The notes under the pieces were generated by a model. The model saw nothing but the letters and a program-made list of their open reading frames with translations, was not told where the DNA came from and made no database searches. From a virus, in IMG/VR virus record IMGVR_UViG_3300023174_000053, positions 1 to 64,000 of that record: a DNA stretch of 64,000 nt; one strand, 5' to 3'. Below, piece after piece: positions 42,571 to 60,934 of the stretch. The first letter of the stretch is position 1; each line of letters opens with the position of its first letter. Both the position numbers and the translations under genes were made by a program.

Positions 42571-43242
42571 TTAACCTTTTTTCCAAGATTCACCTTCTGC
42601 TTTTCTTCTACGAGCAAGTCCTGCTTCTACATTAGATCCAGGATTTCTGTACAAGTAAATCGCATCGGGAACTAAGTCCCATTCTTTATTCTTCAGTGTG
42701 CGTGTAATAGTATTGAAATTATCACCACCATAAAAACCAGCACCAAGATTATAAGCAAAGGAGAGAAGTGCTCCTCTTTTGCCGTCAGACATTTCATTCC
42801 AGTGTGGAATTTTACGAAGTGATGGAAGAAACTGGTTCTTACATTGAGTAATCAATAACTCATCTGCTTCCTGTTGAGTGATGGTATCACCCATATGGAA
42901 TGGTGATCCATCCTTCTTACGGGTAGTTCCCCAACCTATGGTGATTGGAAGTCCACCTGAGAGAGGATCTGGATATGCTTTGAGATGGCATCCTTCAAAC
43001 TCTTTAATGAGTTTTAGACCTGTCATGGGCATATCATCACCACCTGCTACAGGAGCGGCAGCAGTTGATGTAGATGCTGGTGTCGCATTACCCCTTTTTC
43101 CTCTATAAATCTCCGCCCAATCTACAGTATCATCAAGATACTTAACCGGGAGATTATCTTCTAACCACTGAACTGCTTTGATGTGATTAGGGTTCTTCTC
43201 GTCATAAAACTTGAAGAAGTTGTGTAAGTCGATACGTGCCAT
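42571..43242 (-). CDS. Lysozyme (GH24-like) with N-terminal shared module
   Basis: The catalytic domain follows T4 lysozyme spacing: Glu83 in KEFEGCHLKAYPDP, Asp92, and Thr101 in ITIGWGTT. RRRKAEGESW near the C-terminus is typical of GH24. The first roughly 40 residues (LHNFFKFYDEKNPNHIKAVQ and WLEDNLP) recur in the next gene upstream. AAGGAGAAAACTA precedes its ATG. It should cut peptidoglycan at lysis or act from the virion. Confidence 0.88.
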   Translation of the reverse strand: MARIDLHNFFKFYDEKNPNHIKAVQWLEDNLPVKYLDDTVDWAEIYRGKRGNATPASTSTAAAPVAGGDDMPMTGLKLIKEFEGCHLKAYPDPLSGGLPITIGWGTTRKKDGSPFHMGDTITQQEADELLITQCKNQFLPSLRKIPHWNEMSDGKRGALLSFAYNLGAGFYGGDNFNTITRTLKNKEWDLVPDAIYLYRNPGSNVEAGLARRRKAEGESWKKG

Positions 43243-43260: not shown

Positions 43261-43932
43261 TCAATCGAAAATGCGACCCCAACCATCGTTGCCACCTGGG
43301 CACCAACGATGCTTAAGAACTGCTTTGGTGTAAATGGTCTTCTTACCATTTTCTACTGGTCCAGTATAGTTATCATTTAACGAACCATAAGGATCGTTAA
43401 CATAATATCCTTTACCATCTGGTGTCTTACCAATAATTACACACATGTGCCCACCAGTAGGTGAAGAAAGAGAACCCCTATGAAGAATACCAATAACAAC
43501 AGGTTTACCAGCATCCAAACTCTTATCAATATCAGAGAAAGAAAGATTGTAACTAAAGTGTGACTTAACACCAAAACCTTGTAGAACTTTGGTTTGAACT
43601 GAGTGATCAGTTGTGTCACCAATGGCAAATACTTTCTTAACATACTCATCATCACCTTTGATGCTTCCTGGTTTTAGGAACGCAAGGCACATAGCACACG
43701 ATGAAGAGTTACATGTGCGGTGAGCATCTCTGTAGTTGTCTACTTGATTAAAGTAAGGAACCGACAATACTGATGGTGTTGGCGGTTTTGTTCTAAACAT
43801 TCCTATCCACTCGGTTTCAGAATCATCAAGGAATTCAGCAGGTAGGTTATCCTCTAACCATTGAACTGCTGCTACATGATTTGCATTACCATCATCATAA
43901 TACTTAAAAAAGTTATGAAGATCCAGTGTCAT
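43261..43932 (-). CDS. C39/papain-like cysteine peptidase with the same N-terminal module
   Basis: After the shared N-terminal module (LHNFFKYYDDGNANHVAAVQ, WLEDNLP) comes VPYFNQVDNY with Cys74 in RTCNSSSCAMCLAFL as probable nucleophile. GGHMCVIIGKT provides the His and YYVNDPYGSL the Asp. This is the order of peptidase C39-like domains. It lies 18 bases upstream of the lysozyme gene. A wall-peptide-cleaving role is inferred from pairing with lysozyme. Confidence 0.75.
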   Translation of the reverse strand: MTLDLHNFFKYYDDGNANHVAAVQWLEDNLPAEFLDDSETEWIGMFRTKPPTPSVLSVPYFNQVDNYRDAHRTCNSSSCAMCLAFLKPGSIKGDDEYVKKVFAIGDTTDHSVQTKVLQGFGVKSHFSYNLSFSDIDKSLDAGKPVVIGILHRGSLSSPTGGHMCVIIGKTPDGKGYYVNDPYGSLNDNYTGPVENGKKTIYTKAVLKHRWCPGGNDGWGRIFD

Positions 43933-44587: not shown

Positions 44588-45382
44588 TTACTTGCCTTCC
44601 CATCCTGGGGGAAGGGTTCCAAAGTAAGGATCATAATCAAATATTTCATTCCAATCAGAAATATCAACTGCTTGATTTCTCCAAAAATGCCACAATCCTT
44701 CATAACTTGATTTGTGAAATACATCTACATGCTCTGTATGAATGGAAGATCCCAATTCAATTCTATAAAGAAATAAAGGTATAGCAAAAGTATTTCCTGA
44801 GTTATAAATCAAATCATCCGCAACTGCTCTTGGTTTAACTCCATTATCAAGCTTATACTTATCACCACGAACGTGAAGATTGATAATTTTTTGTGCATGA
44901 TATCGAGTAATTAAATAGCAAGCAGTCGAAAAATCATTTACAAATCTGCGGTGCATCTTGAGATGGACTTGTGCAGGATTAATAATCGCAAGTTGAATGA
45001 CATCATAATCATAAGGAACTTTAGAAAAGAAATCTTTCCAAGTAAATCCCCAATGCTTTACCGTATCAAGATCACAATCATCTTCCATAATTAAGGCATA
45101 AGGTGAATCAGAAGTTTCCAAAAAATGTTGAAGGGCCTTCAGGTGCGATGTCACGCAACCAACCTCACTAGAGGACATATTATCAGGATAACGACCTTTA
45201 AGAATATCTCCAAGGTCTCTCCCGTCCCTTCCATCATAAGCAGAGATACGAGTATAATTTTCAATCTCCCAATACTTGAATTGATCCTCCATATATTCTC
45301 TTCTTTCTGGTTGCCCATCAAGATTTAAATAATAGATTGGACCAATACCTTGAAGTTTATAAGTTGATTTGTTTTTATCCAT
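44588..45382 (-). CDS. Glycosyltransferase family 25 (LPS biosynthesis type)
   Basis: The GT25 pattern is present: IYYLNLDGQPERREYME (about 16-32), SSSEVGCVTSHLKALQHFL (about 70-88) and ALIMEDDCDL with the acidic metal site. 264 residues. It is the last gene of the glycan cluster, 15 bases after the fused GT4-GT6 gene. The sigma70 promoter of hli begins inside the region at its end. The acceptor sugar is unknown. Confidence 0.88.
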   Translation of the reverse strand: MDKNKSTYKLQGIGPIYYLNLDGQPERREYMEDQFKYWEIENYTRISAYDGRDGRDLGDILKGRYPDNMSSSEVGCVTSHLKALQHFLETSDSPYALIMEDDCDLDTVKHWGFTWKDFFSKVPYDYDVIQLAIINPAQVHLKMHRRFVNDFSTACYLITRYHAQKIINLHVRGDKYKLDNGVKPRAVADDLIYNSGNTFAIPLFLYRIELGSSIHTEHVDVFHKSSYEGLWHFWRNQAVDISDWNEIFDYDPYFGTLPPGWEGK

Positions 45383-45397
45383 TATTATAATTTATAT

Positions 45398-47131
45398 TTA
45401 AGAATTTAAAATTTGTTTTTTATCATAAGGTGAATGTATAATTCTGGATTTAAAATTAAATTGATCATCAGGATAATCTCCAGGTTTTGCAAATGAAGGA
45501 CTTAAAACATTAAAATTATCTATATTTTCTATTCTATATTTGTTTAAATAACTTTCATCATGAGCAACAGTGATAATTTCATTTTTTAAATCTTCTAATA
45601 TTCTATCATCTAATTCTTCAATCATATCGATGATATCTGGAATTTTTCCTCCCCACACACACCCCTGAAGATACAAATCGTCTTTTTGATCTTCTATTTT
45701 AACACATGCTAAAGACTTTTCATTTCTTTCAAATGGAAGTTTTTCTCCAGATGATGAAGTAAATTTACATAAATTTGAATTTTGGCAAGGATGCTGAACA
45801 CCAAAAAATGACTTACTTTCATCAAAAAATTCTTCATATCCAATAACTTCGGAACAACAATACATATCAGCATCAAAATATACATACCAATCATAATTTA
45901 AAAGTTGTTTTTTAATTTTTTTGAGTTCACCAAATCTTCTCAATCCACCAATACTATTATAAGTCAACTTATATCTATCAGAATAATCCGATATAGTTAT
46001 TTCATCATTTTCAGATACTGGTATTATTTTAATATTTTCTGGGAGATTTCCATCAAGATCACCATCAGTAAAGACGAAAAAATCTTTTTCACATTCAGGA
46101 ACAAAATATTCCATAAATGTTTCATAATACTTAGGGAAAAATTTAAGATAATTTCCACTACCAATAAAATTAATTGCTATTTTCTTTTTGGACATCATTT
46201 TTTCAATATTTGGTAAGTAATAGTTTTGAATGACTGTTTCCCAATCAAATTGTTTTGCATATTCCAATATTTCTTCCCTATGTGAAATTGAATATTCTCT
46301 ATTTTTTACAATTTGATTTTCAATATAATTTATATCATTTATTTTATCTTCAGAAATAATAGTAATAAACTCTTTATTTGGATCTAAATTTGCTTTTCCC
46401 CATTCACAAACAACTACACCAAGTCCAGCAGCAAGTGCTTCCATACAAACTAGAGGATGTGCTTCTCCATCAGAAAGAAGTACAAGATTTCCATAGTCAG
46501 TTAAATTTTCATACAAATATTGTTTGTCCCATTCTCCAAGATAATTTTTATTTTTATCAAATCTATCATCTCTAATATTTCCAGCATACCAAAGAGATTT
46601 AATATCTTGAAATAAAAATTGCCTTTTTCTGTGATCTATAGTTGCCAAATAAATTGATTTATGAAAAAATTTTGGATTTTTAGATATTTTAAAATTTTCA
46701 AAATTTACACCATTGGGATTCAAAAATAATTTATTAGATGGAATATCACATACATCTTTATAAACTTTATTGATACTATCAGAGAGTCCAAATAAATTAG
46801 GTTTAATTTTTGAATATACATCAAATACTCTTTCTTTATATGGACCCATCATTTCAGGTCTTTCTAAATATGCAAAGTGTGTTGTTATAGCGCATGGATA
46901 CTTTATATGGGGATAAAGATATACATAATCATCATAATGAATGTGAACAAAATCTGGATTAAATTTATCTATTTGTTCTATAACTTCATTTAAATTTTGT
47001 GTATTAATAATTTGAATTTCATGCCCCAACTTTTCTAAAGTTAGTTTATAATCCCATATCAAAATTTCTATTGCACCCCAACCAGTAGGTGGGATAGGCA
47101 TAATACCTGGACCGATTAAAGAAATTTTCAT
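45398..47131 (-). CDS. Fused glycosyltransferase: GT4-like N-terminus and GT6 (ABO-type) C-terminus
   Basis: Residues 1-312 are GT4/GT-B-like: MKISLIGPGIMPIPPTGWGA, and SDGEAHPLVCMEALAAGLGV as the nucleotide-sugar site. Residues about 317-577 match GT6: NYDWYVYFDADMYC (DxD at 420-422), LYLQGCVWGGKIPDII and VAHDESYLNKY. GT6 contains the human A and B transferases. Bacterial GT6 enzymes usually have NxN in place of DxD; this one keeps DxD, as I recall for a cyanophage P-SSM2 homologue. One polypeptide could add two sugars in sequence. Confidence 0.85.
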   Translation of the reverse strand: MKISLIGPGIMPIPPTGWGAIEILIWDYKLTLEKLGHEIQIINTQNLNEVIEQIDKFNPDFVHIHYDDYVYLYPHIKYPCAITTHFAYLERPEMMGPYKERVFDVYSKIKPNLFGLSDSINKVYKDVCDIPSNKLFLNPNGVNFENFKISKNPKFFHKSIYLATIDHRKRQFLFQDIKSLWYAGNIRDDRFDKNKNYLGEWDKQYLYENLTDYGNLVLLSDGEAHPLVCMEALAAGLGVVVCEWGKANLDPNKEFITIISEDKINDINYIENQIVKNREYSISHREEILEYAKQFDWETVIQNYYLPNIEKMMSKKKIAINFIGSGNYLKFFPKYYETFMEYFVPECEKDFFVFTDGDLDGNLPENIKIIPVSENDEITISDYSDRYKLTYNSIGGLRRFGELKKIKKQLLNYDWYVYFDADMYCCSEVIGYEEFFDESKSFFGVQHPCQNSNLCKFTSSSGEKLPFERNEKSLACVKIEDQKDDLYLQGCVWGGKIPDIIDMIEELDDRILEDLKNEIITVAHDESYLNKYRIENIDNFNVLSPSFAKPGDYPDDQFNFKSRIIHSPYDKKQILNS

Positions 47132-48024
47132 TTAAAAGAAATCCAATTAATTAAATTTACTTGAGGTTTCCACTCAAAAACATTTTTAATTTTATCTATA
47201 TTTGCAAGTGTTGTTTTTGCTTCTCCAGATCTTGGGGGAATAAAAACATAATTATCGGAAATAATTTTAGCAATTTCTATTATAGAAATATTTTCTCCAG
47301 TTCCAACATTATAAACTTGTCCATAATATTTCTCATCAATCTCTTTTGTTGCCGCAACTATATTTGCATTCACTACATCATAAACATGAACAAAATCTCT
47401 TTTTTGCATCCCATCATCTACAATTGTCAATGATTGATTATTTCTTTTTTGTTTTTGAAAAATACCAATCACTGGGGCATATTGTCCTGTTGTAGGACAT
47501 CTTTCTCCATAGACATTAAAATACCGAAGTATAATTGTCTTCAATCCATACAAATTAGTATACATCTTACAGAGTTTCTCTCCAGCAATTTTAGATACCG
47601 AATAGGGATTTAAACAATCATCAGGTTGATTTTCAACATTTGGGTATGGATTCATTCCATATCCAGAAGAAGTAGAAGAATAAATGACTTTTTTTACTCC
47701 TGCTTCTCTTGCACATTGAAGAACAGTACATGTTCCAACAGCATTTTTTGTTACTGCTTCAATAGGATTTAAGATTGCTGGTTGAAGTCTTGATTCTGCG
47801 GCAAGATGAAAAACATAATCAACTCCATCATAAAGAGATCTAGTTTTTTTATAATCACAAATATCATACTTATAATTTTGCGATTTATCATTCCAATAAA
47901 ATTTTTCATTACATTCAGAACTTTCATTATCAATTGTGATAACTTTATGTCCCTGTTTGATTAATTCATCAACAAGATTTGAACCAATAAATCCTGCTCC
48001 ACCAGTCACTAAACATTTAGTCAT
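47128..48024 (-). CDS. NAD-dependent sugar epimerase (GalE-like)
   Basis: An SDR extended fold with GGAGFIGSNL at residues 8-17, HLAAESR, a catalytic Ser/Tyr/Lys set (YSSTSSGYG; PYSVSKIAGE) and LRYFNVYGERCP. It resembles UDP-glucose or UDP-GlcNAc 4-epimerases, which could provide UDP-Gal or UDP-GalNAc for the adjacent GT6 enzyme. It overlaps the GT4-GT6 gene by four bases. The exact substrate cannot be read from the sequence. Confidence 0.88.
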   Translation of the reverse strand: MTKCLVTGGAGFIGSNLVDELIKQGHKVITIDNESSECNEKFYWNDKSQNYKYDICDYKKTRSLYDGVDYVFHLAAESRLQPAILNPIEAVTKNAVGTCTVLQCAREAGVKKVIYSSTSSGYGMNPYPNVENQPDDCLNPYSVSKIAGEKLCKMYTNLYGLKTIILRYFNVYGERCPTTGQYAPVIGIFQKQKRNNQSLTIVDDGMQKRDFVHVYDVVNANIVAATKEIDEKYYGQVYNVGTGENISIIEIAKIISDNYVFIPPRSGEAKTTLANIDKIKNVFEWKPQVNLINWISFK

Positions 48025-48757
48025 AATTTTCCATTTCTTGTTTTTTTAATTTTATAGATTCATATATTGAAGTCTTCAATTTAGTAGAAGAATACTCATG
48101 AGATTCTCTATCCAACCAAACAATTTGAATTGAAATATTTTCTCCTGTATAAGGTCTTGTTTTATAATCAGTACCTAAAAACCTTATATTATATTCCCCA
48201 CTTCTCAAATAGTCAAGATATTCTTCTTCTACTTTATAAGTAACCACATCATCAATATATTTGATGCTTCTAAGAATCTCCATCCTTTCTTCAACACTTT
48301 GAACTGGTTGAAGTTTATATGATCGTTCTACTGATGGATCTTCATGAAGTGCAACTGTTAAATGATTACAATACAATTTAGCATCCTTAAACATGCGGAT
48401 ATATCCAGGATGAATTACATCAAAAGCACTCGCAATAATACCTTTTTTTAATGAGCAAGTTTTTTTCCACTCTTCTACATTAATACCCTTATCATCAATA
48501 AACAGATGCGCGTGTGGTTTCACATGCATAATAAGTTGGTGATGATAAACTCCCCAAGCACGTAACTGCTCTTTGGTGAGATCTGAATGATCCACACCAC
48601 TCACGCATCCACGAGCAGTCATAATTATAATTTTATGTCCACAATTAAAAAGACGATTAATCTCTTTAACAACTGTTAAATCGGGAAGTGCGTTTTGATA
48701 CTGACTCCCCTCAACAGAAGTACAGATAGTTCCATCTAAATCAAAACAATAAATCAT
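48017..48757 (-). CDS. HAD phosphatase fused to cytidylyltransferase-type nucleotidyltransferase
   Basis: From start 48757 (MIYCFDLDGTICTS) the N-terminal domain has the HAD DxDGT nucleophile motif, MTARG as motif II and FIDDKG as motif IV. The C-terminal domain begins GIIASAFDVIHPGYIRMF and ends with STKLKTSIYES, like the HldE C-terminal or glycerol-3-phosphate cytidylyltransferase family. The usual HxGH reads HPGY here. Next to a GmhA-like isomerase and a heptose-kinase-like gene, it could do both the GmhB and nucleotidyltransfer steps. Confidence 0.82.
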   Translation of the reverse strand: MIYCFDLDGTICTSVEGSQYQNALPDLTVVKEINRLFNCGHKIIIMTARGCVSGVDHSDLTKEQLRAWGVYHHQLIMHVKPHAHLFIDDKGINVEEWKKTCSLKKGIIASAFDVIHPGYIRMFKDAKLYCNHLTVALHEDPSVERSYKLQPVQSVEERMEILRSIKYIDDVVTYKVEEEYLDYLRSGEYNIRFLGTDYKTRPYTGENISIQIVWLDRESHEYSSTKLKTSIYESIKLKKQEMENYD

Positions 48758-49257
48758 ACTACTCCATGCAAAAAGATTTGATGAACACACTCAACGATTC
48801 CATAATCTCTACTGTCAATATGATAGTCCCAGAGAGCATTATTGGCAATACTTCTTGCTTTATTTGTAAAGTTAAAACCAGTCAAAATACCATAAGAAAT
48901 CGTGTTACTCTCACAATACTTAATACAGTTAATAATATTTTTAGATTCACCACCAGAACTAATTAAGATGCAAAGAGTTTCTGGTGTTGAATAATATTCC
49001 AGAAATTTTCGATATGCATTCTCCATTCCAAAATCATTAATAAAACAAGTCAACATTGATGGATCAGAAAACACCAAAGAATTCTTATTATGAAATTTTA
49101 CATAATCCTGAGAGATATGTGATGCAACGGAATTGCTTCCACCATTACCAAGAATGATAATATTATTATACTTGTTGAAGGCATCTTTAAATTTAGAAAA
49201 TTGTTCTTCAATATGAGCACCATGAAGTGCATCAATATAATTTGAAAAAGGATTCAT
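48754..49257 (-). CDS. gmhA: Phosphoheptose isomerase-like SIS protein (GmhA-like)
   Basis: The SIS fold motifs are IIILGNGGSNSVASHISQDYVK (about 34-55), DFGMENAYRKFLEYY and LCILISSGGESKNII. This is close to GmhA, which makes D-glycero-D-manno-heptose 7-phosphate from sedoheptulose 7-phosphate. 167 residues. It overlaps the kinase gene upstream and the HAD fusion downstream. The symbol is given by family and context, not proven. Confidence 0.83.
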   Translation of the reverse strand: MNPFSNYIDALHGAHIEEQFSKFKDAFNKYNNIIILGNGGSNSVASHISQDYVKFHNKNSLVFSDPSMLTCFINDFGMENAYRKFLEYYSTPETLCILISSGGESKNIINCIKYCESNTISYGILTGFNFTNKARSIANNALWDYHIDSRDYGIVECVHQIFLHGVV

Positions 49258-50201
49258 ATTTTTCTACCAACAACTCCATTAGATTCTACATTTATTTTAA
49301 CAGATTGGTATGGAACAGTCAAGGAATCCTTTTCAGAAAACACGAGAAAAAATCCACCATTACCAGCACCACATAGTTTATGAGCAAGAACAGTTTCATT
49401 TTCATTTAATTGTTCGTCTATTTCTTTTATAGTAGAACTCTCAGTAATTGTGGAACTTGTTTTCTTTTTTTGAATCCAACTTTTATTCAAATAATTAAGA
49501 AACTTGCCATAATCTTTTTGGAGAAGAGCATCATATGCCTTATCTACAGTTGCAAGAAGTGGTTTAGACTTATCAATGTTATCAGTAACATCTTTCAAAA
49601 CATTTTTGGAATTGCGAGTTACTCCAGTAAAGACAAGATGAGCATCATATATTTTAAAGAATTCTGTTGGAAGAAAATCATATTTTACGATTCCACCTTT
49701 CTTAAATTCCATTCTTTTGAATCCACCAATACCACATCCATAAGGATCTTGATATCCACAATAAGGATTCATTTCTAGTTCTAATTGATATGCAAGTTCG
49801 CAGATTTCAATATCAGTCATCTGCAAATCATTAAATATAGAAATTGATTTAATTAAACTAATAATATAAGACGAAGATGATGCCAATCCACTTCCCTGTG
49901 AGTAAGCATCACTCGTCATAGAAACATTAATTGGGTGAACTCCAAAATAATTGAGAACAATTCTTACCAATTCATTTTCAATATCTCCAATAAATTCCGT
50001 TTCTTCTCTTTTAGAGTAATTAATAATATATTTGCTCTGATTGTAATTATACCCAATTTTATCCTCATGAAGAGTAATATAGGTTTTTAAATCACAAGTA
50101 AAACTAATTACAGATCCATACCCATACTTTTCTACAAAATATGGATTATCTGTTGAACCACCAAATAAAGAGACTCTTAGTGGACAAGATGATATAATCA
50201 T
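49254..50201 (-). CDS. hddA: GHMP kinase, heptose-7-phosphate kinase-like (HddA-like)
   Basis: MIISSCPLRVSLFGGSTDNP at the N-terminus, the GHMP ATP motif SQGSGLASSSSYIISLI (about 103-119) and a C-terminal LAHKLCGAGNGGFFLVF match HddA-type sugar kinases. It would phosphorylate D-glycero-alpha-D-manno-heptose 7-phosphate at C1. Its place between GmhA-like and GT genes supports this over mevalonate or galactokinase roles. Four-base overlaps on both sides show tight coupling. Confidence 0.83.
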   Translation of the reverse strand: MIISSCPLRVSLFGGSTDNPYFVEKYGYGSVISFTCDLKTYITLHEDKIGYNYNQSKYIINYSKREETEFIGDIENELVRIVLNYFGVHPINVSMTSDAYSQGSGLASSSSYIISLIKSISIFNDLQMTDIEICELAYQLELEMNPYCGYQDPYGCGIGGFKRMEFKKGGIVKYDFLPTEFFKIYDAHLVFTGVTRNSKNVLKDVTDNIDKSKPLLATVDKAYDALLQKDYGKFLNYLNKSWIQKKKTSSTITESSTIKEIDEQLNENETVLAHKLCGAGNGGFFLVFSEKDSLTVPYQSVKINVESNGVVGRKI

Positions 50202-51163
50202 AAATTTATAATATTTTCAATATCATTTACATATTTTTTCATTTTTTCAACCAAGGAAAATGATTCAATTCCATACTCTCTAATTTCATTCCTTCTTTCC
50301 AAAGATACTTTTCTATTTTCAAATATTTTTTTAGAAATATATTCTAAATCATTCAACTTTTCATTAGGAATTACCTCAATAAAATTTAAACTAGTATCAA
50401 GTTCATTTACATTTTGCTCGGAAACTACAACTCCCAAACCAAGAATTAGAGCTTCCATTATAACCATTGCTGTGCCATTTTCACCATCACTAAGATGAAC
50501 AAGATTTGCATATGATGTAATTATACCATTACTTTTCAATTCCCCCAAATAATTTTTATTTTCTGGGTCAAAAGATGTTCCAGGAAAATACTTACCAACA
50601 AAATCTATTCCTGGAATAGATTGATATAGATATTGTTTTTTCCTTTGATGAATTTGACCAAGATAAAGAGATTTATTTGGATTTTCGCATTCACTATTAT
50701 ATCTAAATTCAGAAACTAGGGGTCCTTCTCTTAAATGAAAAATTCTATCTTTTGGAAATCCATTTTCAATAAAAAAATCATAATTTTTTGGAGAAACAGA
50801 AAAATTATAAAATTTATTTCCATTATTTAAAATATAGTCAAAAATTTTATCATATCCATCACGTCTATGCATATTTACCTGTTCAATATATGGGTAATGA
50901 CTGCTAAACAAAATTGGACATTTTACTTTATCATACAAATAATCAACAACAGGATAATGTTGATCATAATGAAAATGAATTACATCATAATCACCATTTA
51001 AACATTCTGCAGTAATCTCATTCATATCTGGAGTATTCAAAATATCCCCCTCATGCCCTAATTCACTTAAAGCACAAGATCTATACCAAATAGCTCTTTC
51101 TACTGCACCCCATCCTGTTGGTGGGATAGGCATTATTCCTGGACCGACTAAACAAATTTTCAT
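50198..51163 (-). CDS. Glycosyltransferase GT4-like
   Basis: Start 51163 (MKICLVGPGIMPIPPTGWGA) is almost identical to the N-terminus of the fused enzyme at 47131, so the two GT4 domains are paralogues. The nucleotide-sugar site is SDGENGTAMVIMEALILGLG. It is 321 residues, with no GT6 part. The open frame reaches 12 codons further upstream. It overlaps the HtrL/YibB-like gene by four bases. Confidence 0.86.
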   Translation of the reverse strand: MKICLVGPGIMPIPPTGWGAVERAIWYRSCALSELGHEGDILNTPDMNEITAECLNGDYDVIHFHYDQHYPVVDYLYDKVKCPILFSSHYPYIEQVNMHRRDGYDKIFDYILNNGNKFYNFSVSPKNYDFFIENGFPKDRIFHLREGPLVSEFRYNSECENPNKSLYLGQIHQRKKQYLYQSIPGIDFVGKYFPGTSFDPENKNYLGELKSNGIITSYANLVHLSDGENGTAMVIMEALILGLGVVVSEQNVNELDTSLNFIEVIPNEKLNDLEYISKKIFENRKVSLERRNEIREYGIESFSLVEKMKKYVNDIENIINL

Positions 51164-51963
51164 TTTGTTAACTCTGTAAATAACTCCATTTGTTTCCAAT
51201 TATTTCTATAAAATATTTCAAAAAATTCTGGTTTATTTTTTACAAGATAACCCAAAGCAATTTGTTCGTTATTTAAATTATTTTTAGAAATCATATCATT
51301 AAAAAGAATATTTTCAATTTCACCTAAAATTTTGGGGTGAATGTTTTTATGCATACCAAAAAAAGTACCACAAACGAATGACCTAGCATCATAAAAGTAA
51401 CTTCTATCTAAAGAATTTGAAGATACAAGATCAGAATAAGATTCCATATTTTGTTGTATAAGAAATTTTTCTCCCAATTCATCCAATTCTTTATTAGCAG
51501 CAACTCCTGGAAATTCTTGTTCCAAATTAAATCCATCAAAAAATCTAGATGCTCCTGCATCAATCCAAAAAAATAATTCACTATTAAAATCATTATTTTG
51601 GATTGATTTTTCAATCCATTTAAATTTAGAATACTGAATAATAGAATAAAGAGAATAATTACACTCTATTCTATCCAAAACTGTCATTTTATTTTTATAA
51701 TCATCGGATTGAAGAATTGAATCCATTTTATCTTTTAAGTAATAATATGGAATTTCGTCAAGTCTTTGGGAAATAATCTTAGTATTTTGATCTTCTCTAT
51801 GACTTTTTACAAAATCCACAAGACTCTCTTCTACAAAAATAACCATAGGGCATTTTAATTTTAACGTCACAGAAAACCATTGAAGATATTCATCCCAGGT
51901 TCTTCCATCCATATTTTCCCTATTAATATTAAATAAAGCCGTGGTAATTGTTATATTTTTCAT
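51160..51963 (-). CDS. HtrL/YibB-type glycosyltransferase-like protein
   Basis: NITITTALFNINRENMDGRT at the start, followed by EYLQWFSVTLKLKCPMVIFVEE, IIQYSKFKWIEKS and LFFWIDAGASRFF, match the HtrL_YibB family, found in LPS core clusters of bacteria. 267 residues from start 51963 (MKNITITTALF); the frame opens six codons earlier. The substrate is unknown. Confidence 0.8.
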   Translation of the reverse strand: MKNITITTALFNINRENMDGRTWDEYLQWFSVTLKLKCPMVIFVEESLVDFVKSHREDQNTKIISQRLDEIPYYYLKDKMDSILQSDDYKNKMTVLDRIECNYSLYSIIQYSKFKWIEKSIQNNDFNSELFFWIDAGASRFFDGFNLEQEFPGVAANKELDELGEKFLIQQNMESYSDLVSSNSLDRSYFYDARSFVCGTFFGMHKNIHPKILGEIENILFNDMISKNNLNNEQIALGYLVKNKPEFFEIFYRNNWKQMELFTELTK

Positions 51964-51965
51964 AA

Positions 51966-52784
51966 TTAAATTCTTTCCCAATTTTTAGGTAACTGATCTT
52001 TTAAAATTAAATGTTCCAATTCTGTCCCATACCATTTTTTTGGAGCAATTACTTTTTTATTCTTATTTTTTGACAACCAAGCCCCCCACCAAGAAAATGT
52101 ACTGTTTGCCATAATAAAATCATTACACATTGCCATCAAACAAAGATCAAAATGACCTTTATATATTCTATCAGGTGTATCAACAAAAAATGAATTTCTA
52201 TTTGTAAAAATTTCTTGTTTTTTGCACCATTCAATATCATCAGAAAAAATTAAAATATCTCTACCTTCAAATTTTTCCAAGGCAGTTTTATAATAATCTA
52301 AACTACAAACAGGATGACGATTCAAATGATGTGGTAGTAAAAAATCACCTCTTCTTACAGTCAAAGCAACTGGTTCATTTTTTAATATATCCTTTCCATA
52401 TGATAAACATTTTTCAACAATAAAATCTTTAAATTCATAATTTTTTCTAATTTTATCTTCTACGTGTTTAAAATATTTTTCACTTTCAAAATATCCAATC
52501 AAAGTTACATTATCTGGACACTCATCAAGCAATTCTTCACAAAAATGATATTGATTTAATTCAACAATATCACCATCAACAAATCCATATTTTCCTTCAA
52601 ATTCAGACATTTTAAAACATCCTTGAAGTTCATGGTGTTGAAAACCACCAAAATCATTATATATGGAATGGTCTGGAATGCAATAATCATACTTACGATG
52701 TGCTGCAATTCCTAAAAGTGCAGCACACTGAAACATTTGATTTCCTAGTCTTCCTATTTGTCCTAAATGATTAAATCCTATCAT
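51966..52784 (-). CDS. Alpha-1,2-fucosyltransferase-like (GT11)
   Basis: GRLGNQMFQCAALLG (about 11-25), VALTVRRGDFLLPHH with the conserved basic pair for GDP-fucose, and NDFIMANSTFSWWGAWLS (about 224-241) are the three GT11 hallmarks. Such enzymes add L-fucose alpha-1,2 to galactose, making H-type antigen. GT6 enzymes act on exactly that acceptor, and one is encoded in the same cluster. Family call is firm; linkage is inferred. Confidence 0.92.
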   Translation of the reverse strand: MIGFNHLGQIGRLGNQMFQCAALLGIAAHRKYDYCIPDHSIYNDFGGFQHHELQGCFKMSEFEGKYGFVDGDIVELNQYHFCEELLDECPDNVTLIGYFESEKYFKHVEDKIRKNYEFKDFIVEKCLSYGKDILKNEPVALTVRRGDFLLPHHLNRHPVCSLDYYKTALEKFEGRDILIFSDDIEWCKKQEIFTNRNSFFVDTPDRIYKGHFDLCLMAMCNDFIMANSTFSWWGAWLSKNKNKKVIAPKKWYGTELEHLILKDQLPKNWERI

Positions 52785-52789
52785 AATTT

Positions 52790-53539
52790 TTATTTGTCAT
52801 AATATTCTCTAAATTGATGAACTAATGGATTTGTTTTTGTTCTCCAATTAGCATCTCTGGTACATTCAATTATATCTGGATTGAATACTTCTTCTTCTCC
52901 TACCATAGCAAATAGAGTTGGTATCAAAGCATCATGGGCACACATAGCATACCATTCATATGAAAGTTTATCAAGTATTCCATCGTACTCTCTAAATTTT
53001 TTCAATGCTTTTAAAAAAGTTTCAACTTCAAATACACAAGGAGATGCACCCCATCTTGTTAAAATTTTTGCACCATCAACAGATGCAAGAACATCACGAT
53101 ACCCCTTTGGCGAACAACAATTAATTCTTGATCCCAAAAGTTTAGCATCATCTGGAATTGTCAATTTTCCTCTGATTAAAGCATCAGGATCCATCATAAC
53201 CATCCAATCTGGATATTTACAATATTCTATTGCTCTTTCCAATCTATCCAAAACAGTCAGAGCACACTTTTTGATTACATTTTGATAATAATCTTCTCTA
53301 AAATTTCCTGGACCTGCACCATTAGGTCCTGCTGTTATTTTAAATATGTCTGACATTGTATCTTCTTCCAAAGATACAAATAAATTATCATAGATATCTT
53401 TTAAATATGAGAAATCCAATCCACCATCAGAAACCAAATAAATTAAAGAATCTGGGTAATGAATTCTTAATTGTTGAACAGAATAATCAACCGCACGTTG
53501 TTCATTAAAACAACTATACATAAATCCTAATGTTTTCAT
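52790..53539 (-). CDS. Glycosyltransferase-like protein (GT-A fold type)
   Basis: From start 53539 (MKTLGFMYSCFNEQRAVDYS) the 249-residue product has QLRIHYPDSLIYLVSDGGLDF, a DPDALIRGK acidic motif (about 112) and a C-terminal His-containing VHQFREYY. This is like GT-A enzymes, but no numbered family can be assigned by eye. It starts two bases after the FkbM-like stop. Confidence 0.72.
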   Translation of the reverse strand: MKTLGFMYSCFNEQRAVDYSVQQLRIHYPDSLIYLVSDGGLDFSYLKDIYDNLFVSLEEDTMSDIFKITAGPNGAGPGNFREDYYQNVIKKCALTVLDRLERAIEYCKYPDWMVMMDPDALIRGKLTIPDDAKLLGSRINCCSPKGYRDVLASVDGAKILTRWGASPCVFEVETFLKALKKFREYDGILDKLSYEWYAMCAHDALIPTLFAMVGEEEVFNPDIIECTRDANWRTKTNPLVHQFREYYDK

Positions 53540-53540
53540 A

Positions 53541-54149
53541 TTAATTAAATTTTGCAATTATTTCTGAAGGATATTCACTCTCTGATTTTAATTTTTCTAT
53601 TAAAGATTTATCAAATTCAGAAGGATCAATCCACCAATCTTCAAAAGGATATTCTTTTCCTTCATATCCAGATTGTTGGACATACACGTTAGAGCAAAGT
53701 AAAAAATATCCAAAAGATTCTAAAATACTTCTCTGTTGTTCTCTATATTCATCTCCATAAAGATATCCGTCATGTTCAATTGTGATTACTTTAAATCTAT
53801 ATTCATCAAGTGGTAAAATTTTAAGAACATTAAGACTTAAAGTATCTACATCCAAAGAAAGATAATCAATATTTTTAGGAAATTCATATTCTTCAAATAC
53901 TTGTATATAATCAACACCAAGAGCATCTTCATTCAAATGAACACCACTTTTTCTAGTTCCATAACTTTCATTATATGAACTTTCGATCTCAACACTTATC
54001 GATGACCAATCTAGGTCTTGAAAATAAAAAGTATTATTGAAAATGATAGAATGGCAACTTCCAATATCTACACAATATCCATTTTTTTTAAAATTTAAAA
54101 TATTTGCAACAAATTGATCTTGCTTTGCATCAGAATAAAAACGATTCAT
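53541..54149 (-). CDS. FkbM-like methyltransferase
   Basis: NGYCVDIGSCHSIIFNNTFY (about 23-42) is the SAM-binding motif I region. NIDYLSLDVDTLSLNVLKIL and FKVITIEHDGY follow, as in the FkbM family where the DVDG motif usually occurs (here DVDT). 202 residues. Likely O-methylates a sugar of the surface glycan. It follows an 86-base gap that holds a broken small reading frame. Confidence 0.82.
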   Translation of the reverse strand: MNRFYSDAKQDQFVANILNFKKNGYCVDIGSCHSIIFNNTFYFQDLDWSSISVEIESSYNESYGTRKSGVHLNEDALGVDYIQVFEEYEFPKNIDYLSLDVDTLSLNVLKILPLDEYRFKVITIEHDGYLYGDEYREQQRSILESFGYFLLCSNVYVQQSGYEGKEYPFEDWWIDPSEFDKSLIEKLKSESEYPSEIIAKFN

Positions 54150-54152
54150 AAT

Positions 54153-54246
54153 TTACTTCAAATTGCTTATAATTGTTTCTAAAGTATGTATAAACTTTTC
54201 ATTGGTCCAAGAATTATACTTTTTTAAAAATTTTATTAAAATCCAT
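54153..54246 (-). pseudogene. Small reading frame broken by a one-base homopolymer difference
   Basis: ATG 54246 starts MDFNKIFKK and then stops after one more codon. Deleting one A from the run of six would join it to YNSWTNEKFIHTLETI and ISNLK, which stops at 54153. The second part reads like genuine coding sequence. Either a small gene was recently damaged or the base call in the A run is wrong. Confidence 0.4.
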
Positions 54247-55006
54247 CTTCATGCCACCCTTCAACGTTGAGATCAAATGGAAAATAATAAATATTATTTT
54301 TTGGCCAAATAAAATCTATTCCTTTTCTTGGAAAAGATTTAAAATATTTTGGCATTACCTCTGTACTAACTTGTTTGGCATACTCCCAATTTACTGCCCC
54401 ATCATACAAATATTTTTCTTGGTCATTTACCATATCAACAACTCTATCATCAAATCTACTACAATAATAAGCACCAATATATGTTTCTGATCTAGTGAAC
54501 AAGTTCATATATGAAGACATATTATTGCGGTTAATTCCCATTTTCTGACACAAATCATTTTGTTCAAATGGTATATCAAACAAATTAATCATATCTTCTT
54601 TATATCCCATAAAAACATGATCTCTCGGATGGAACAGATGTGCAAAAATATTTCCACAAATAAAAATTGTTTCCTTCTTCTTATTTTCAATAAAGTAGTT
54701 AATCATATTATCCATACCTTGATGATTAAACTTTTGATCACTTCTCATCTTAATAATGTATTTTGCTTTAGATGCTTTTACACCATTTAAAGATGTAGTT
54801 AGTTGCATATTAACGTTTCCTACACCAGAATATGGAGGATAAACTGAATTTCTTACGAATTTAACTCTATCCAATTTATATTCTTCTGTCTTGTCTACGT
54901 CCCAACAAGAAATAATAATATTGTCAATTAAATCAATTTTAAGATACAAATCAATAACTTCATCTGTGAATTCTGTATATGGACCTTGAATAACTATGTC
55001 TATCAT
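54236..55006 (-). CDS. WavE-like LPS biosynthesis protein
   Basis: MIDIVIQGPYTEFTDEVIDL and KYIIKMRSDQKFNHQGMDN, then FICGNIFAHLFHPRDHVFMG, match the WavE family of LPS outer-core enzymes. 256 residues; probably a glycosyltransferase. One base separates it from the nucleotidyltransferase-HAD gene. Acceptor unknown. Confidence 0.83.
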   Translation of the reverse strand: MIDIVIQGPYTEFTDEVIDLYLKIDLIDNIIISCWDVDKTEEYKLDRVKFVRNSVYPPYSGVGNVNMQLTTSLNGVKASKAKYIIKMRSDQKFNHQGMDNMINYFIENKKKETIFICGNIFAHLFHPRDHVFMGYKEDMINLFDIPFEQNDLCQKMGINRNNMSSYMNLFTRSETYIGAYYCSRFDDRVVDMVNDQEKYLYDGAVNWEYAKQVSTEVMPKYFKSFPRKGIDFIWPKNNIYYFPFDLNVEGWHEDGF

Positions 55007-55007
55007 A

Positions 55008-56066
55008 TTATTTTAAAAACTCTGTTAGATTATCGGAATTTCTTGGAAGATTAATTGATTCACATGCTGGATAGGGATTACTATTAGCAAAATCATTGAT
55101 AATAACTCGTTTACAGTGAGGAAGTCCCATAATAAGTGTATCATATGGAATATTATACTTGTACATCTCATCTATTGTCAACTCTCTAAGTCTTTCTGGT
55201 CTACTTGTTGTCAAAATAATTTTAACTTTTCCAGAATCATAAAGTTTCCTTAAAAGAGAAATATTACTATTCAGTGGTTCTCCAGTTCCAACATATGGTG
55301 GAAAGTGTATTGAAGAATTAAAAACTAGTGTTCCATCAATATCTACAAATAAACAACGGTACTGACTTTTATATTTGTTCCATGCATCAAGAGTTCCCCA
55401 ATCTTTAAAGTTAGTAGTTGACAATCCATTAAATCTAGATCCAGAAAGAATCATTTCAAAAATAATATTGCTAATATAACATTCTCCATCAAGATCTTCA
55501 ATTTGCTCATATGCTTTACAGAATTCTTTGGCATCTTTAAATCCATATCCACCAACAGAAAAAGTAGAACTAATAACTTTTTTCTCAACTATATTAGTTA
55601 CAATACCATTAATGTCAAATTCAACATAACTTTTTGTTTTTGCATTAATATCATCCATGTTATTCAAATCAAAAAATGCAATTTGATTCTCATCATCGAC
55701 TAATTCACATTCATAGTAACCATCAGAGTCTTTAATAAAAATAAATCCTTCAATATTTTCTAATTTAATTGCATTATAAACTGTTTCAGACTGAGAGGAA
55801 GTTTGATTATCCAAAAATATTATTTTTGACTTATTTTCAATTCCACATTCTTCAAGTTCTTCATGAAATCCTTTTGAAAAACCATACTTAATTTCATGCT
55901 CATTTAGGCATATAAAATAGATGGCATCAAAAAAGTCTAGATTAATTCCAGATATTGCATCCATAACCATAAACTTGTTTTTCATTGGATGAGTTAACAT
56001 CCATTTAGGTTTCATATTTGGAAATCTAGATGATTTCCCTGCCATTGGTACAATTAAATTTTTCAT
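55008..56066 (-). CDS. Sugar nucleotidyltransferase fused to HAD phosphatase
   Basis: The N-terminal domain (about 1-235) has the nucleotidyltransferase start MKNLIVPMAGKSSRFPNMKP and a metal motif FIKDSDGYYE near residue 110. The C-terminal domain starts LFVDIDGTLVFNS (about 240), a HAD DxDGT motif, with TTSRPERLRE as motif II. The combination suggests a phosphosugar is activated and a phosphate removed by one protein. It overlaps the kinase-like gene upstream by 41 bases. Confidence 0.82.
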   Translation of the reverse strand: MKNLIVPMAGKSSRFPNMKPKWMLTHPMKNKFMVMDAISGINLDFFDAIYFICLNEHEIKYGFSKGFHEELEECGIENKSKIIFLDNQTSSQSETVYNAIKLENIEGFIFIKDSDGYYECELVDDENQIAFFDLNNMDDINAKTKSYVEFDINGIVTNIVEKKVISSTFSVGGYGFKDAKEFCKAYEQIEDLDGECYISNIIFEMILSGSRFNGLSTTNFKDWGTLDAWNKYKSQYRCLFVDIDGTLVFNSSIHFPPYVGTGEPLNSNISLLRKLYDSGKVKIILTTSRPERLRELTIDEMYKYNIPYDTLIMGLPHCKRVIINDFANSNPYPACESINLPRNSDNLTEFLK

Positions 56067-56868
56067 ATAGATCAGTTTTTAAAATGCTACTATTAAGTAT
56101 ACTTTTTTGTTTTGAATTAATCAAGTAAGGTTCTATTCGCAATAGATTTAAAGAATCTAATATTTTAAATTCATCACTTTCAATATAATTTTGATACCTA
56201 AAATATAAATTTTTCCAAATATATTGATACGATTGTTTGATTCTTATATCATCAATTTTATTTAGTTTCAAATTCCAAAAATAATACAAATCTTGTTTCA
56301 ATTTAACCATATCACACAAGAAACTATCAATATAAGAATCTAAAAAATCTATAAAAAATAATCTATTTTTATGAAATAAAATATTTGAGAAGGTTAAATC
56401 ACCATGACAAAAAGTTTTTGGTATTGATACAATTTCTTTACTCAAGATATTATTTTTTATAAAATTCAAATAACTACCATATTTTGTTTTTTCTTCCAAA
56501 CTTTCAATCTTTGATATTAATTTATTTTTAATATTAGATATTTTTATATTAGAAATTAAAAAATCAAAATATTCAAATAAAGTATGAACAACAAAATCAA
56601 TATTGTTAATACAAGAAGTAGAAAAATATTCTTCAAAAGAAAGTCCAGAGATATACTCCATATCAAAATAATACAAAGAATCAAAATTTGAGTTATAAAT
56701 TTTTGGAGTATCTATATTTTTTAATATAAAATTTGAAAATAATTTTTGCTTCTCAATTTGGGATGATAATCTGGAATTATACTCCATCGAAGATGAATAT
56801 TTTCTCAAACTTAAGTTATCTAATAATTCAAGTTTGCATCCAGATAATCCAGATTTTAAATTACTCAT
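56026..56868 (-). CDS. APH/choline-kinase-like phosphotransferase
   Basis: KTFCHGDLTFSNILFHKNRL and FFIDFLDSYIDS (about 152-187) are the catalytic HGDxxxxN and DxD/DF motifs of the aminoglycoside-phosphotransferase and choline-kinase fold. 280 residues, very AT-rich. Paired with a nucleotidyltransferase-HAD gene, it likely phosphorylates a sugar or alcohol that is then activated. The large overlap (41 bases) with that gene suggests coupled translation. Confidence 0.8.
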   Translation of the reverse strand: MSNLKSGLSGCKLELLDNLSLRKYSSSMEYNSRLSSQIEKQKLFSNFILKNIDTPKIYNSNFDSLYYFDMEYISGLSFEEYFSTSCINNIDFVVHTLFEYFDFLISNIKISNIKNKLISKIESLEEKTKYGSYLNFIKNNILSKEIVSIPKTFCHGDLTFSNILFHKNRLFFIDFLDSYIDSFLCDMVKLKQDLYYFWNLKLNKIDDIRIKQSYQYIWKNLYFRYQNYIESDEFKILDSLNLLRIEPYLINSKQKSILNSSILKTDLYEKFNCTNGREII

Positions 56869-56876
56869 GAATGAAA

Positions 56877-57701
56877 TTAATATCCATTTAAATGCAAATA
56901 AGTTACTATTCTTTGCAAATAAAAATCTTTAGAATCATACAAATATTCTTTTCCATAATTCAAATTAAATTCTTCTATTGAAGATTCATGCAATGGATGC
57001 ATTCCTGATGGATGATCATAAGTAGAATCTGGAATATTTCTATCATTCACTGTTTTAATTATATCTTCACCAAGTTCTTTCATATTTAATCTTTTTAAAA
57101 TTTGATTAGTAACATATAAAAATACTAAACTAGTTGGATGATGTGGGATTAAAAATAAAAGTTTATTTGAAAGATTTTCTTCTATAAAATTTGAAACTTT
57201 AATATCTGTCAATGTTTCTTTTTGTTTTAAAATTTGTATACTTTTATCAAACCTATTTTTATAATCCCAGTTTATTTTATTTTTATGATATAAATTGAGT
57301 ATATCATTTCTTTTCAATCCCTTTGAAAGTAAATTCTCAATTACTTCTCCACCAAACCATATGTTTATATTTTTTCCTTTTTGAACAAGTGGCCACATAG
57401 CAGAGGAAAAAATGTAAGGATATGCTATTTTAATAGCATCATTTTTTACATAAGATCCAATAGATCCTTCAACACTTGGATCCGTAGAATAACACCCATG
57501 AACTATTCGCAAAGGATGATATATAAACAGATCCGCATTTTGAATATCATTCATAGGAATTTCACAATTATTTTTAATTAATTGCCAATTAGTATAATGT
57601 TTCATCTCATAAGTTTTATTAAACTCATCACTTTGAGATAGATAATACATTATTCCATCATTTTGGCAATTTCCTATCAATAAGCAATTTAATTTTTTCA
57701 T
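56877..57701 (-). CDS. WcbI-like polysaccharide biosynthesis protein
   Basis: The opening KKLNCLLIGNCQNDGIMYYL, IYHPLRIVHG with a later HPSGMHPL and a C-terminal DFYLQRIVTY resemble the WcbI family, acetyltransferase-like enzymes of capsule clusters. 274 residues; highly AT-rich like its upstream neighbour. It overlaps the GT-B-like gene by four bases. Confidence 0.75.
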   Translation of the reverse strand: MKKLNCLLIGNCQNDGIMYYLSQSDEFNKTYEMKHYTNWQLIKNNCEIPMNDIQNADLFIYHPLRIVHGCYSTDPSVEGSIGSYVKNDAIKIAYPYIFSSAMWPLVQKGKNINIWFGGEVIENLLSKGLKRNDILNLYHKNKINWDYKNRFDKSIQILKQKETLTDIKVSNFIEENLSNKLLFLIPHHPTSLVFLYVTNQILKRLNMKELGEDIIKTVNDRNIPDSTYDHPSGMHPLHESSIEEFNLNYGKEYLYDSKDFYLQRIVTYLHLNGY

Positions 57702-58669
57702 TTTAATATAGAAAGCAAACTATTGACTCTATTGATATAGGTATGATTTTCTTTTACATATTTCATACCATCTAAAATTAACTTTTCATTTTCTCTATTT
57801 TTCATTGCTTCATAAAATAACTCTGATGTATCATCACAATAAACACAATTACCATCAAGTTCTTTGTATATCTCTTCTGAATTAGTCAATCCAAGATGAC
57901 CATAACTTATATTTTTAAAAACTCTACAAGTAAGAAGTTTTTGTTTTAAGTGCTGAAGTCCTCTAATATCAATTCCAAGAAGAGATTCTTGGGTTCTTCG
58001 AATTACTTCTTCATTTGAAAGGGGATTTGTCCAAGGATCATTATGAACAAACCCAATATTATTTTTTTTACATTCTTCTATGAAAGGAAGAAAATTTGAA
58101 TAATTTTCACAAATGCCAAATGAAGATATTGTTCCACAATAATAAACATTTGGTTCTCTTGGAATGTAAATATCATCCTCATTGAATTCATCTGGAAGTT
58201 TATTAGTTGCCCAACTTATATAAACTTTATCATAATCACTCATCTCATAATCAACATAATCATTTTTGACCTTAACTTTTTCAAGTGTTTTGGGGACAAA
58301 ATAACAAGCAGGTCCAATTTTAATTGCAGTGTTTTTATCTAAAGAATATTCTTGAATATGATCTTTAAAGTCAACTGCTGCCATTCGAATATCAATATAC
58401 CTTTCAGCATCTTGATATTTAATAGGAGATGGGCAATACATAATCAAATAACAACTTGTATTATTGATAGGTATTTTTTTATCTGCAAATCCTTCACCAA
58501 CAAAAAGACAATTTGTAAAATCAAATTCTATTGGATAATCATCATCATGAAACCAGTAGACATCATACCCAAGATGTTTAAATGTCCTATAATATGCCTC
58601 ATGAACATACGAATGTGTATGAGAGTATAATGGATGTCCCCAAATAACTACTTTAGAATATTTCATCAA
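57698..58669 (-). CDS. GT-B-like glycosyltransferase (CgeB-type) candidate
   Basis: The N-terminal half has SKVVIWGHPLYSHTHSYVHE and a HLGYDVYWFHDDDYP segment. The C-terminal half has ESLLGIDIRGLQHLKQKLLT and CRVFKNISYGHLGLTNSEE, then NCVYCDD, as in CgeB or Glyco_trans_1_2 proteins. 323 residues. The fold is likely GT-B; sugar and acceptor cannot be assigned. Confidence 0.72.
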   Translation of the reverse strand: MMKYSKVVIWGHPLYSHTHSYVHEAYYRTFKHLGYDVYWFHDDDYPIEFDFTNCLFVGEGFADKKIPINNTSCYLIMYCPSPIKYQDAERYIDIRMAAVDFKDHIQEYSLDKNTAIKIGPACYFVPKTLEKVKVKNDYVDYEMSDYDKVYISWATNKLPDEFNEDDIYIPREPNVYYCGTISSFGICENYSNFLPFIEECKKNNIGFVHNDPWTNPLSNEEVIRRTQESLLGIDIRGLQHLKQKLLTCRVFKNISYGHLGLTNSEEIYKELDGNCVYCDDTSELFYEAMKNRENEKLILDGMKYVKENHTYINRVNSLLSILK

Positions 58670-59901: not shown

Positions 59902-60934
59902 AATTTTTTTCCTTTGCTAATTTAAGATCATTCTCACACATTTCTTCAACAAGTTGTTCAAATGTATATTCAGGTTTCCATTTTAGTATTTCTTTTGCTT
60001 TAGAACAATCACCAATAAGTGATTCTACTTCTGCTGGACGATAATATTCTGGATTAATTTGTACTAATGGTTTTCCTACATTTATATCTATACCAATTTC
60101 ATTTATACCTTCTCCAGACCATTCCATATCAAAACCAAAATATTTACAAGATATATTTACAAAATCCCGAACAGAGTGTTGCTGTTCCATACTTATAACA
60201 TAATCATCAGGTATATCATTCTGAAGCATCATCCACATAGAACGAACATAATCTTTAGCATGTCCCCAATCACGTTTCGCATCTAGATTGCCAAGTTCAA
60301 GAGGTGCTTTCTTTTTTCCAATTGAAATTTCTGCAAGTGCTTTGGTGATTTTACGAGTTACAAACAATTCACCTCTTCTTGGTGATTCGTGATTAAAAAG
60401 GATCCCATTACACCCAAACATATTATATGATTCTCTATAATTTTTCACAATCCAAAAACCATAAAGTTTGGATACTCCATAAGGAGAACGTGGATAAAAT
60501 GGAGTTGTTTCTTTTTGGGGTGTTTCTTGTACTTTTCCAAAAAGTTCTGAGGTTGAAGCTTGATAGAATCTTGTTTTTTCTGATAATCCAAGAATTCGAA
60601 TTGCTTCTAAAATTCTCACAACACCAACGGCATCAACATCAGTTGTATAGAGAGAATTTGTAAATGAAAATTTTACATGACTTTGTGCTGCTAAATTATA
60701 AATTTCATCTGGACGAGTTTCTTGAATAATAGAAGTAATATTAGAAAAATCCGTCAAATCTCCATAATGAAGATGAATATTTGAATTACTCAAAAGTGGC
60801 GTAATTCGTCCCGTACTATCTGAAATAGAATTACGACGAATAATACCATGCACATCATATCCTTTATTCAAAAGAAGTTCAGCAAGATAAGATCCATCTT
60901 GCCCAGTAATTCCAGTAATTAATGCTGTTTTCAT
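59885..60934 (-). CDS. gmd: GDP-mannose 4,6-dehydratase
   Basis: [20 protein letters not shown] (start 60934, preferred to the ATG at 60970) is the Rossmann motif. [12 protein letters not shown], the [15 protein letters not shown] motif with catalytic Thr/Glu, [16 protein letters not shown] and [10 protein letters not shown] are diagnostic. It makes GDP-4-keto-6-deoxymannose, the precursor of GDP-fucose, GDP-rhamnose or GDP-perosamine. 349 residues. First gene of the glycan cluster. No GDP-fucose synthase was found in the window. Confidence 0.96.

Follow-up and report, generated by a model that had tools for sequence, protein, structure and literature searches.

A putative GT11-GT6 glycosyltransferase module with an exchangeable GDP-sugar supply in cyanophage glycan clusters

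The DNA analysed here, referred to throughout as the window, comprises positions 1 to 64,000 (64,000 nucleotides) of the IMG/VR virus record IMGVR_UViG_3300023174_000053. Two photosystem reaction-centre genes, psbA and psbD (PF00124), identify the source of the 171-kb record as a cyanophage, and the relatives of this phage are Kyanoviridae. The window contains a glycan cluster of approximately 16 kb on the minus strand (44588-60970), which is intact at both ends. It encodes a family 11 glycosyltransferase (GT11) and a family 6 glycosyltransferase (GT6) of the ABO type, a pair for which an earlier note on this DNA had proposed a blood-group-like epitope. Genes that bear on that proposal are listed below; L-numbers in the text are labels of related loci or contigs that were compared with the window.

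45398-46210, minus strand: GT6 domain, about residues 308-577 of a GT4-GT6 fusion (PF03414, E 3e-14; ABO and BoGT6a structures in the PDB by sequence and fold; residue mapping)
46211-47131, minus strand: GT4-type domain, in front of GT6 (phrog_33732, 514 bits)
51966-52784, minus strand: GT11 of a divergent subfamily, with TVRRGD for HxRRxD (PF01531, E 1e-28; tree; motif alignment; fold)
58666-59901, minus strand: sugar 3-C-methyltransferase, nearest to D-mycarose 3-C-methyltransferase (PDB 4rv9, E 4e-54; TcaB9), overlapping the next gene
59885-60970, minus strand: GDP-mannose 4,6-dehydratase (GMD; TIGR01472, 522 bits, cut-off 415)

The GT6 domain matched PF03414 with 52.8 bits (cut-off 25) and also phrog_3317, while its match to the NCBIfam model Gltr_6 was below cut-off (129 versus 250 bits). 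The GT6 part was modelled with AlphaFold2 from a 35-sequence alignment (pLDDT 89.7, pTM 0.89), and the best PDB matches of the model by Foldseek were BoGT6a and the human ABO transferases (E approximately 1e-18). Residue mapping identified equivalents of Arg188, the DxD motif (DAD, aligned to ABO residues 211-213), His233 and His301-Asp302-Glu303, the HDE nucleophile motif that includes the catalytic Glu. Two acceptor contacts of A/B-type enzymes are absent, with Thr245 replaced by Pro and Trp300 by Ala, and acceptor contacts are altered across the whole clade to which the window GT6 belongs. The equivalent residues of BoGT6a, Thr134 and Trp189, contact the substrate (PMC3961637). Positions 266 and 268 are occupied by Gln and Cys; by analogy with the Met/Ala of GTB, this may favour UDP-Gal as the donor.

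The scans retained the best 80 hits, ranked by similarity to the window proteins, and the trees of GT6 and GT11 were built by a quick method. All 101 viral GT6 copies found carry DxD, compared with NxN in 68 of 80 cellular GT6 in the genome scan. In the GT6 tree, 57 of the 58 viral rows grouped in a single set that also held three DxD genes of metagenome-assembled genomes (Saprospiraceae, Omnitrophota and Pacearchaeota), and human ABO stood on a very long branch away from it. The earlier note had rightly reported a DxD motif and had likened it to that of vertebrate enzymes; the motif itself is the same, but because the viral GT6 form their own clade and ABO lies elsewhere, DxD suggests metal dependence rather than vertebrate kinship. 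A DXD GT6 enzyme of Parachlamydia is metal-dependent (PMC3961637). The ABO-type DxD GT6 thus has a large virus-borne branch, distinct from the vertebrate and most bacterial members.

The mention in the earlier note of a GT6 in cyanophage P-SSM2 was correct, and GT6 also occurs in approximately 70 deposited phage records and in no fewer than 502 stretches of IMG/VR (alignment-based scan, best 80 of 502 used); a single-sequence scan had returned just one viral relative. P-SSM2 was rejected as the nearest known case, as the phylogeny that the earlier note had suggested as a check put its GT6 in another lineage, outside the main cyanophage clade and beside a Parachlamydiales sequence, on a long branch of unsure placement.

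The fusion described in the earlier note was confirmed: 45398-47131 on the minus strand is a single open reading frame of 577 amino acids, with an N-terminal GT4-type domain (residues 1-315; just 20 bits to Pfam GT4) followed by the C-terminal GT6 domain. The GT4 domain is approximately 55-68% identical to stand-alone cyanophage glycosyltransferases and 39% identical to a second GT4 in the window. An assembly error, one A too many, was considered for this arrangement. A run of six A lies upstream of an internal ATGATG (junction GAAAAAATGATG), removal of one A gives two overlapping genes, and L002, L016 and L024 encode GT4 and GT6 separately, in genes that overlap, nearly touch or lie nearby. 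However, L012 and L013, from other metagenomes, have the identical 577-aa layout with a different junction free of the A-run, and fused forms with other linkers occur in L014, L021, L026 and L027, in L035, L041, L045, L047, L051 and L052, and in L055 and L056. Because independent contigs carry the fusion with other junctions, an artefact was ruled out as a general explanation, and the probability left to it is negligible. Among the viral sequences in the GT6 tree, at least four changes between the fused and the separate state were counted; the fusion is genuine and has recurred.

The GT11 at 51966-52784, which the earlier note had also named, scored 100.6 bits against PF01531 and is the sole GT11 in the record. 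A PDB search with GT11 sequences gave nothing useful, and fold comparison was used instead: the first matches of the GT11 model (pLDDT 92) were the GDP-fucose-using enzymes POFUT1, FUT8, Arabidopsis FUT1 (AtFUT1) and NodZ, with TM scores of approximately 0.5-0.6. Motif I of the window GT11 departs from HxRRxD, RR and D being kept and the His lost. This His is replaced by T in the window and by V in both L023 and L025; of the 189 viral GT11 in which the motif could be recognised, 181 retain it. In the GT11 tree, the window grouped with L023, L025 and second, motif-broken GT11 copies from L031, L033 and L034, apart from the GT11 adjacent to GT6 (support 99), and on this tree orthology between the window GT11 and the GT6-adjacent GT11 of its relatives was rejected. 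In the second copies (L031 11364-12215, L033 12192-13037 and L034 11562-12359), HxRRxD is disrupted by a 4-residue insertion as well as by substitutions; these enzymes are possibly inactive or use another donor.

To count adjacency, viral GT6 were grouped at 90% identity into 58 clusters. GT11 was found within 60 bp of GT6 in 39 of the 58 and within 3 kb in 54; the three clusters lacking GT11 were all on truncated contigs, and the distance in the window was 5.8 kb. GT11 came first in 34 of the adjacent pairs and GT6 in 5. Where a locus had 8 kb or more of sequence on each side, GT11 was present at every viral GT6 locus (45/45), but GT6 at 5 of 21 GT11 loci. This one-way dependence of GT6 on GT11 is as expected if GT11 makes the GT6 acceptor. 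GT11 also lies within 3 kb of bacterial GT6 in 51 of 79 clusters and 1.5 kb from the GT6 of P-SSM2. A functional link between GT11 and GT6 is supported, and the pairing is wider than the window and not peculiar to it. Thus the linkage behind the blood-group-like proposal held, whereas the window itself has a GT11 of another lineage with an altered motif I and a GT6 changed at Thr245 and Trp300. A full-text literature search found no paper treating GT11, GT6 and phage together. In two uncultured huge-phage records of approximately 640 kb (LR756502 and LR745206), relatives of GT6 and GT11 are both present, about 12-20 kb apart.

The gene directly before the canonical GT11 was GDP-L-fucose synthase (GFS) in 8 of 15 clusters and a second SDR in the other 7. 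The SDR of S-CAM9 matched Arabidopsis GDP-mannose-3,5-epimerase (GME, 2c59) with 275 bits, and those of SynMITS9220M01 and Bellamy share 65-67% identity with the S-CAM9 protein, so an identification of these three proteins as GalE was rejected. The GME-like genes (L007 12065-13183, L006 14096-15145 and L008 16113-17195) were deposited as UDP-glucose 4-epimerase (S-CAM9) or as a generic epimerase. Among 50 viral records, 31 carried GFS, 11 carried GME and none carried both (Fisher 2e-6, a value that overstates the evidence because contigs share ancestry). In the fairer test on phylogenetically independent pairs, GFS and GME were opposite in 6 of 7 (p 0.03). The donor type requires 14 changes on the GT6 tree, so the GDP-sugar cassette appears to have been swapped repeatedly while the GT11-GT6 pair persisted. 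Fucosyltransferases accept GDP-L-Gal (PMC8787198). GMD, GFS, GME and a GT11 have been listed for S-SCSM1, with no donor-swap link drawn (PMC9602691), and in the literature library searched, no paper was found on a GT11-GT6 pair that is kept while its neighbouring GDP-sugar gene is exchanged.

A third type of supply involves the sugar 3-C-methyltransferase, which was present in 18 records, 15 of them also with GFS. The GFS that accompanies the methyltransferase is 72-100% identical to the DSL-LC02 reference, compared with 51-59% for complete GFS from records lacking the methyltransferase, and on these identities it is a separate subfamily. GMD together with a C-3-methyltransferase and GMER is the proposed GDP-L-virenose route of Coxiella (PMC3539893). 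In the window, GMD clears its equivalog cut-off by 107 bits, and the methyltransferase recurs at 81-84% identity in two further phage records with GT6. The earlier note had placed this GMD on the way to GDP-fucose. The enzyme is genuine, but its gene lies outside the 45398-52784 interval that the note discussed and is paired with the methyltransferase gene, and neither GFS nor GME was found in the 171-kb record, so that a phage-encoded GMD and GFS supply is probably lacking; relatives keep GFS inside the cluster. GMD and methyltransferase also occur without GFS in L025 and, on a shorter contig, in L023; the L035 record has the methyltransferase and no GFS, but does have GME. The phage of L002 carries a 62-aa N-terminal GFS stub next to an intact GMD (L250 6900-7088), likely a recent loss.

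Four genes between GT11 and the fusion form a heptose-type cassette:

47128-48024, minus strand: SDR nucleotide-sugar epimerase, GalE/WbpP-like, at the end of the cassette (galE 158 bits, below cut-off; PDB 4zrm, wbpP, WbgU)
48017-48790, minus strand: HAD phosphatase-nucleotidyltransferase fusion, HldE domain II-like (rfaE_dom_II, E 6e-15; phrog_7878)
48754-49257, minus strand: GmhA-like sedoheptulose-7-phosphate isomerase (SIS; NCBIfam gmhA-type models, best E 5e-14)
49254-50201, minus strand: HddA-like heptose-7-phosphate kinase (GHMP; NF049969, E 3e-29; PDB 4n3o, 3k85)

The epimerase, which the earlier note had called GalE-like, does score best as GalE, but at 158 bits it is far below the cut-off of 262; the heptose epimerase model gave 117 bits. 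The cassette, with its epimerase, lies directly against the GT4-GT6 gene. Within the fetched regions, 6 of the 13 clusters in the GT6 clade of the window carried the cassette, compared with 1 of the other 45; these counts are uncorrected for relatedness and come from loci of differing length. A Campylobacter-type action of GMD on GDP-heptose was not favoured, given the margin by which GMD passed its cut-off and the HldE-like nature of the nucleotidyltransferase. The lipopolysaccharide of marine Synechococcus is reported to be free of heptose and 3-deoxy-D-manno-octulosonic acid (KDO) (PMC4515613); the cassette at 48017-50201 sits in a phage whose likely hosts reportedly lack lipopolysaccharide heptose.

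From the observed gene identities, linkage, donor-gene exclusivity and residue changes, we infer a transfer order, linkages, donors, an acceptor and a destination (host envelope or virion) for the glycan. The best explanation, to which we assign a probability of about 0.5, is an H-to-A/B-like GT11-GT6 phage module with a swappable donor, of which the window holds a derived form. The cluster would be the cyanophage's own surface-glycan pathway. GT11 would transfer a sugar from its GDP-linked donor onto a terminal hexose, and the metal-dependent, retaining GT6 would then add an alpha-hexose, probably from UDP-Gal, to the branched acceptor. The dedicated gene beside GT11 would set the GDP-sugar, either GDP-L-fucose (GMD and GFS) or, probably, GDP-L-galactose (GME), and a 3-C-methyl-deoxyhexose made by GMD and the methyltransferase, with or without GFS, would be the third option. 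In the window, GDP-mannose would be converted by GMD and the 3-C-methyltransferase to a GDP-bound branched 3-C-methyl-6-deoxy sugar. The divergent GT11 would add this sugar, or host GDP-fucose, to a chain that perhaps contains heptose, and the GT4-GT6 protein would add two more residues, the last an alpha-hexose, giving a motif related to, and not identical with, A/B/H. For the phage module, an architecture resembling that of blood-group antigens is plausible, and the evidence for an H-like logic is much stronger for relatives that combine GFS or GME with a canonical GT11 than for the window. A fuller version, which we hold tentatively and at less than even odds, is that of a portable cyanophage module in which GT11 and GT6 are kept and the cassette for GDP-L-fucose, GDP-L-galactose or the 3-C-methyl-deoxyhexose is exchanged, so that the branched trisaccharide, ABO-like in architecture, would differ from phage to phage; in the window, the C-methylated sugar would occupy the fucose position, and GT4 and GT6 would act as one enzyme.

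Several points weigh against the derived-module explanation. No dedicated reductase was identified for the GMD-methyltransferase branch in the window, the methyltransferase may feed another transferase, GDP-fucose could come from the host, and the GDP-sugar products are deduced from gene content. In addition, GT11 and GT6 are 5.8 kb apart in the window, and related phages share clusters through descent and exchange, which makes the counts non-independent. A genuine H-to-A/B epitope, in which the window GT11 makes Fuc-alpha-1,2-Gal (H), GT6 makes a true A- or B-type structure and a host GFS completes GDP-fucose, agrees with the confirmed family memberships, the retained DxD, His233, His301-Asp302-Glu303 and Arg188 equivalents, the GT6-GT11 linkage in relatives and the canonical GMD, GFS and GT11 of phages of the same GT6 clade (L016 and L018). 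It is unlikely in the window phage because both enzymes and the sugar supply are much changed: the record has no GFS, motif I of GT11 has lost its His, the GT6 substitutions affect residues that contact substrate in BoGT6a (PMC3961637), and the GMD gene overlaps that of the methyltransferase.

The two genes could instead be members of one large exchangeable glycan cluster that act at separate addition sites, their proximity reflecting shared inheritance. All the genes do lie within one 16-kb cluster, genes for GT4, GT25 and YibB likewise recur beside GT6 and GT11 in related clusters, and the window pair is well separated. The spacing of at most 60 bp in 39 of 58 clusters, in both gene orders, the one-way dependence of GT6 on GT11, and the recurrence of the pairing in bacteria and in the separate P-SSM2 lineage argue against this alternative, which has a minor though appreciable chance. 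Somewhat less probable again is a re-purposing in which the window-clade GT6 acts on, or adjacent to, a chain containing heptose, independently of GT11. The enrichment of the heptose-type cassette in this clade, its position against the GT4-GT6 gene and the clade-wide changes in acceptor contacts are consistent with such a shift, but the association carries the limits noted above, and in the sequence retrieved around L002, L015 and L016, which belong to the clade, GT6 lies next to a canonical GT11 and the cassette is absent.

The sugar genes of phage glycan clusters are usually catalogued together with no specific role assigned. A pair in which GT6 depends on GT11 but not the reverse, the linkage is fixed and the donor genes can be exchanged leads to a concrete prediction of the glycan tip and of how phages diversify it, and GDP-L-galactose emerges as a likely donor for a viral glycan. 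That the GDP-sugar gene next to a constant GT11-GT6 pair appears to be exchanged is a more interesting result than the A/B/H reading.

The window cluster also contains the following genes:

44588-45382, minus strand: GT25-family glycosyltransferase, the recurrent last gene of such clusters (PF01755, E 1e-12; synteny)
50198-51199, minus strand: second GT4-type glycosyltransferase (phrog_33732; 39% identical to the fused GT4 domain)
51160-51981, minus strand: HtrL/YibB-family protein, a recurrent neighbour in related clusters (PF09612, E 1e-17; synteny)
53541-54149, minus strand: FkbM-type methyltransferase (PF05050, E 6e-5; similar genes in the L003 and L023 clusters)

A sub-cassette at 55008-57701 encodes a WcbI-like protein, an APH-like kinase and a nucleotidyltransferase-HAD fusion; kinase and nucleotidyltransferase-HAD fusion genes like these also lie side by side at L250 4265-6113. 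Two adjoining genes, lysozyme-like (42571-43242) and C39-peptidase-like (43261-43932), have a common N-terminal domain of approximately 60 residues with 50% identity, as if one targeting module served two lytic or processing enzymes.

A known system close in logic is the E. coli O86 O-antigen, in which WbwK (GT11) and WbnI (GT6) make a blood group B epitope (PMC4202792). As in the window, GT11 and GT6 are encoded together in a surface-glycan cluster, with an H-then-B logic; unlike this bacterial system, the window has a divergent GT11, no GFS, a changed GT6 acceptor site and a GT6 fused to GT4. BoGT6a of Bacteroides ovatus (PMC3961637) shares the GT6 fold (Foldseek E 2e-18) and the catalytic Glu, His and Arg equivalents, but is an NxN, metal-independent enzyme with Ala-Gly-Gly at 155-157, where the window has DxD and Gln-Gly-Cys, and its Thr134 and Trp189 are Pro and Ala in the window. 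Human GTA and GTB share the fold, DxD, His233 and the HDE motif; they are 23-24% identical by fold alignment, and differ from the window enzyme at the donor-selecting positions 266 and 268 (Gln/Cys in the window), at Thr245 and Trp300, and in the GT4 domain in front of the window GT6. The GT6 of P-SSM2 (AAX44645) is likewise a cyanophage DxD enzyme with GT11 nearby, in a cluster with GMD and GFS, but it falls outside the main cyanophage clade, keeps Ala-Gly-Gly and Trp300, and is unfused. The virenose route of Coxiella burnetii (GMD, a TylCIII-type C-methyltransferase and GMER; PMC3539893) resembles the window in having GMD next to a sugar 3-C-methyltransferase; it is a proposed route, and the window lacks the GMER step, whereas many GT6 phages also add GFS/GMER.

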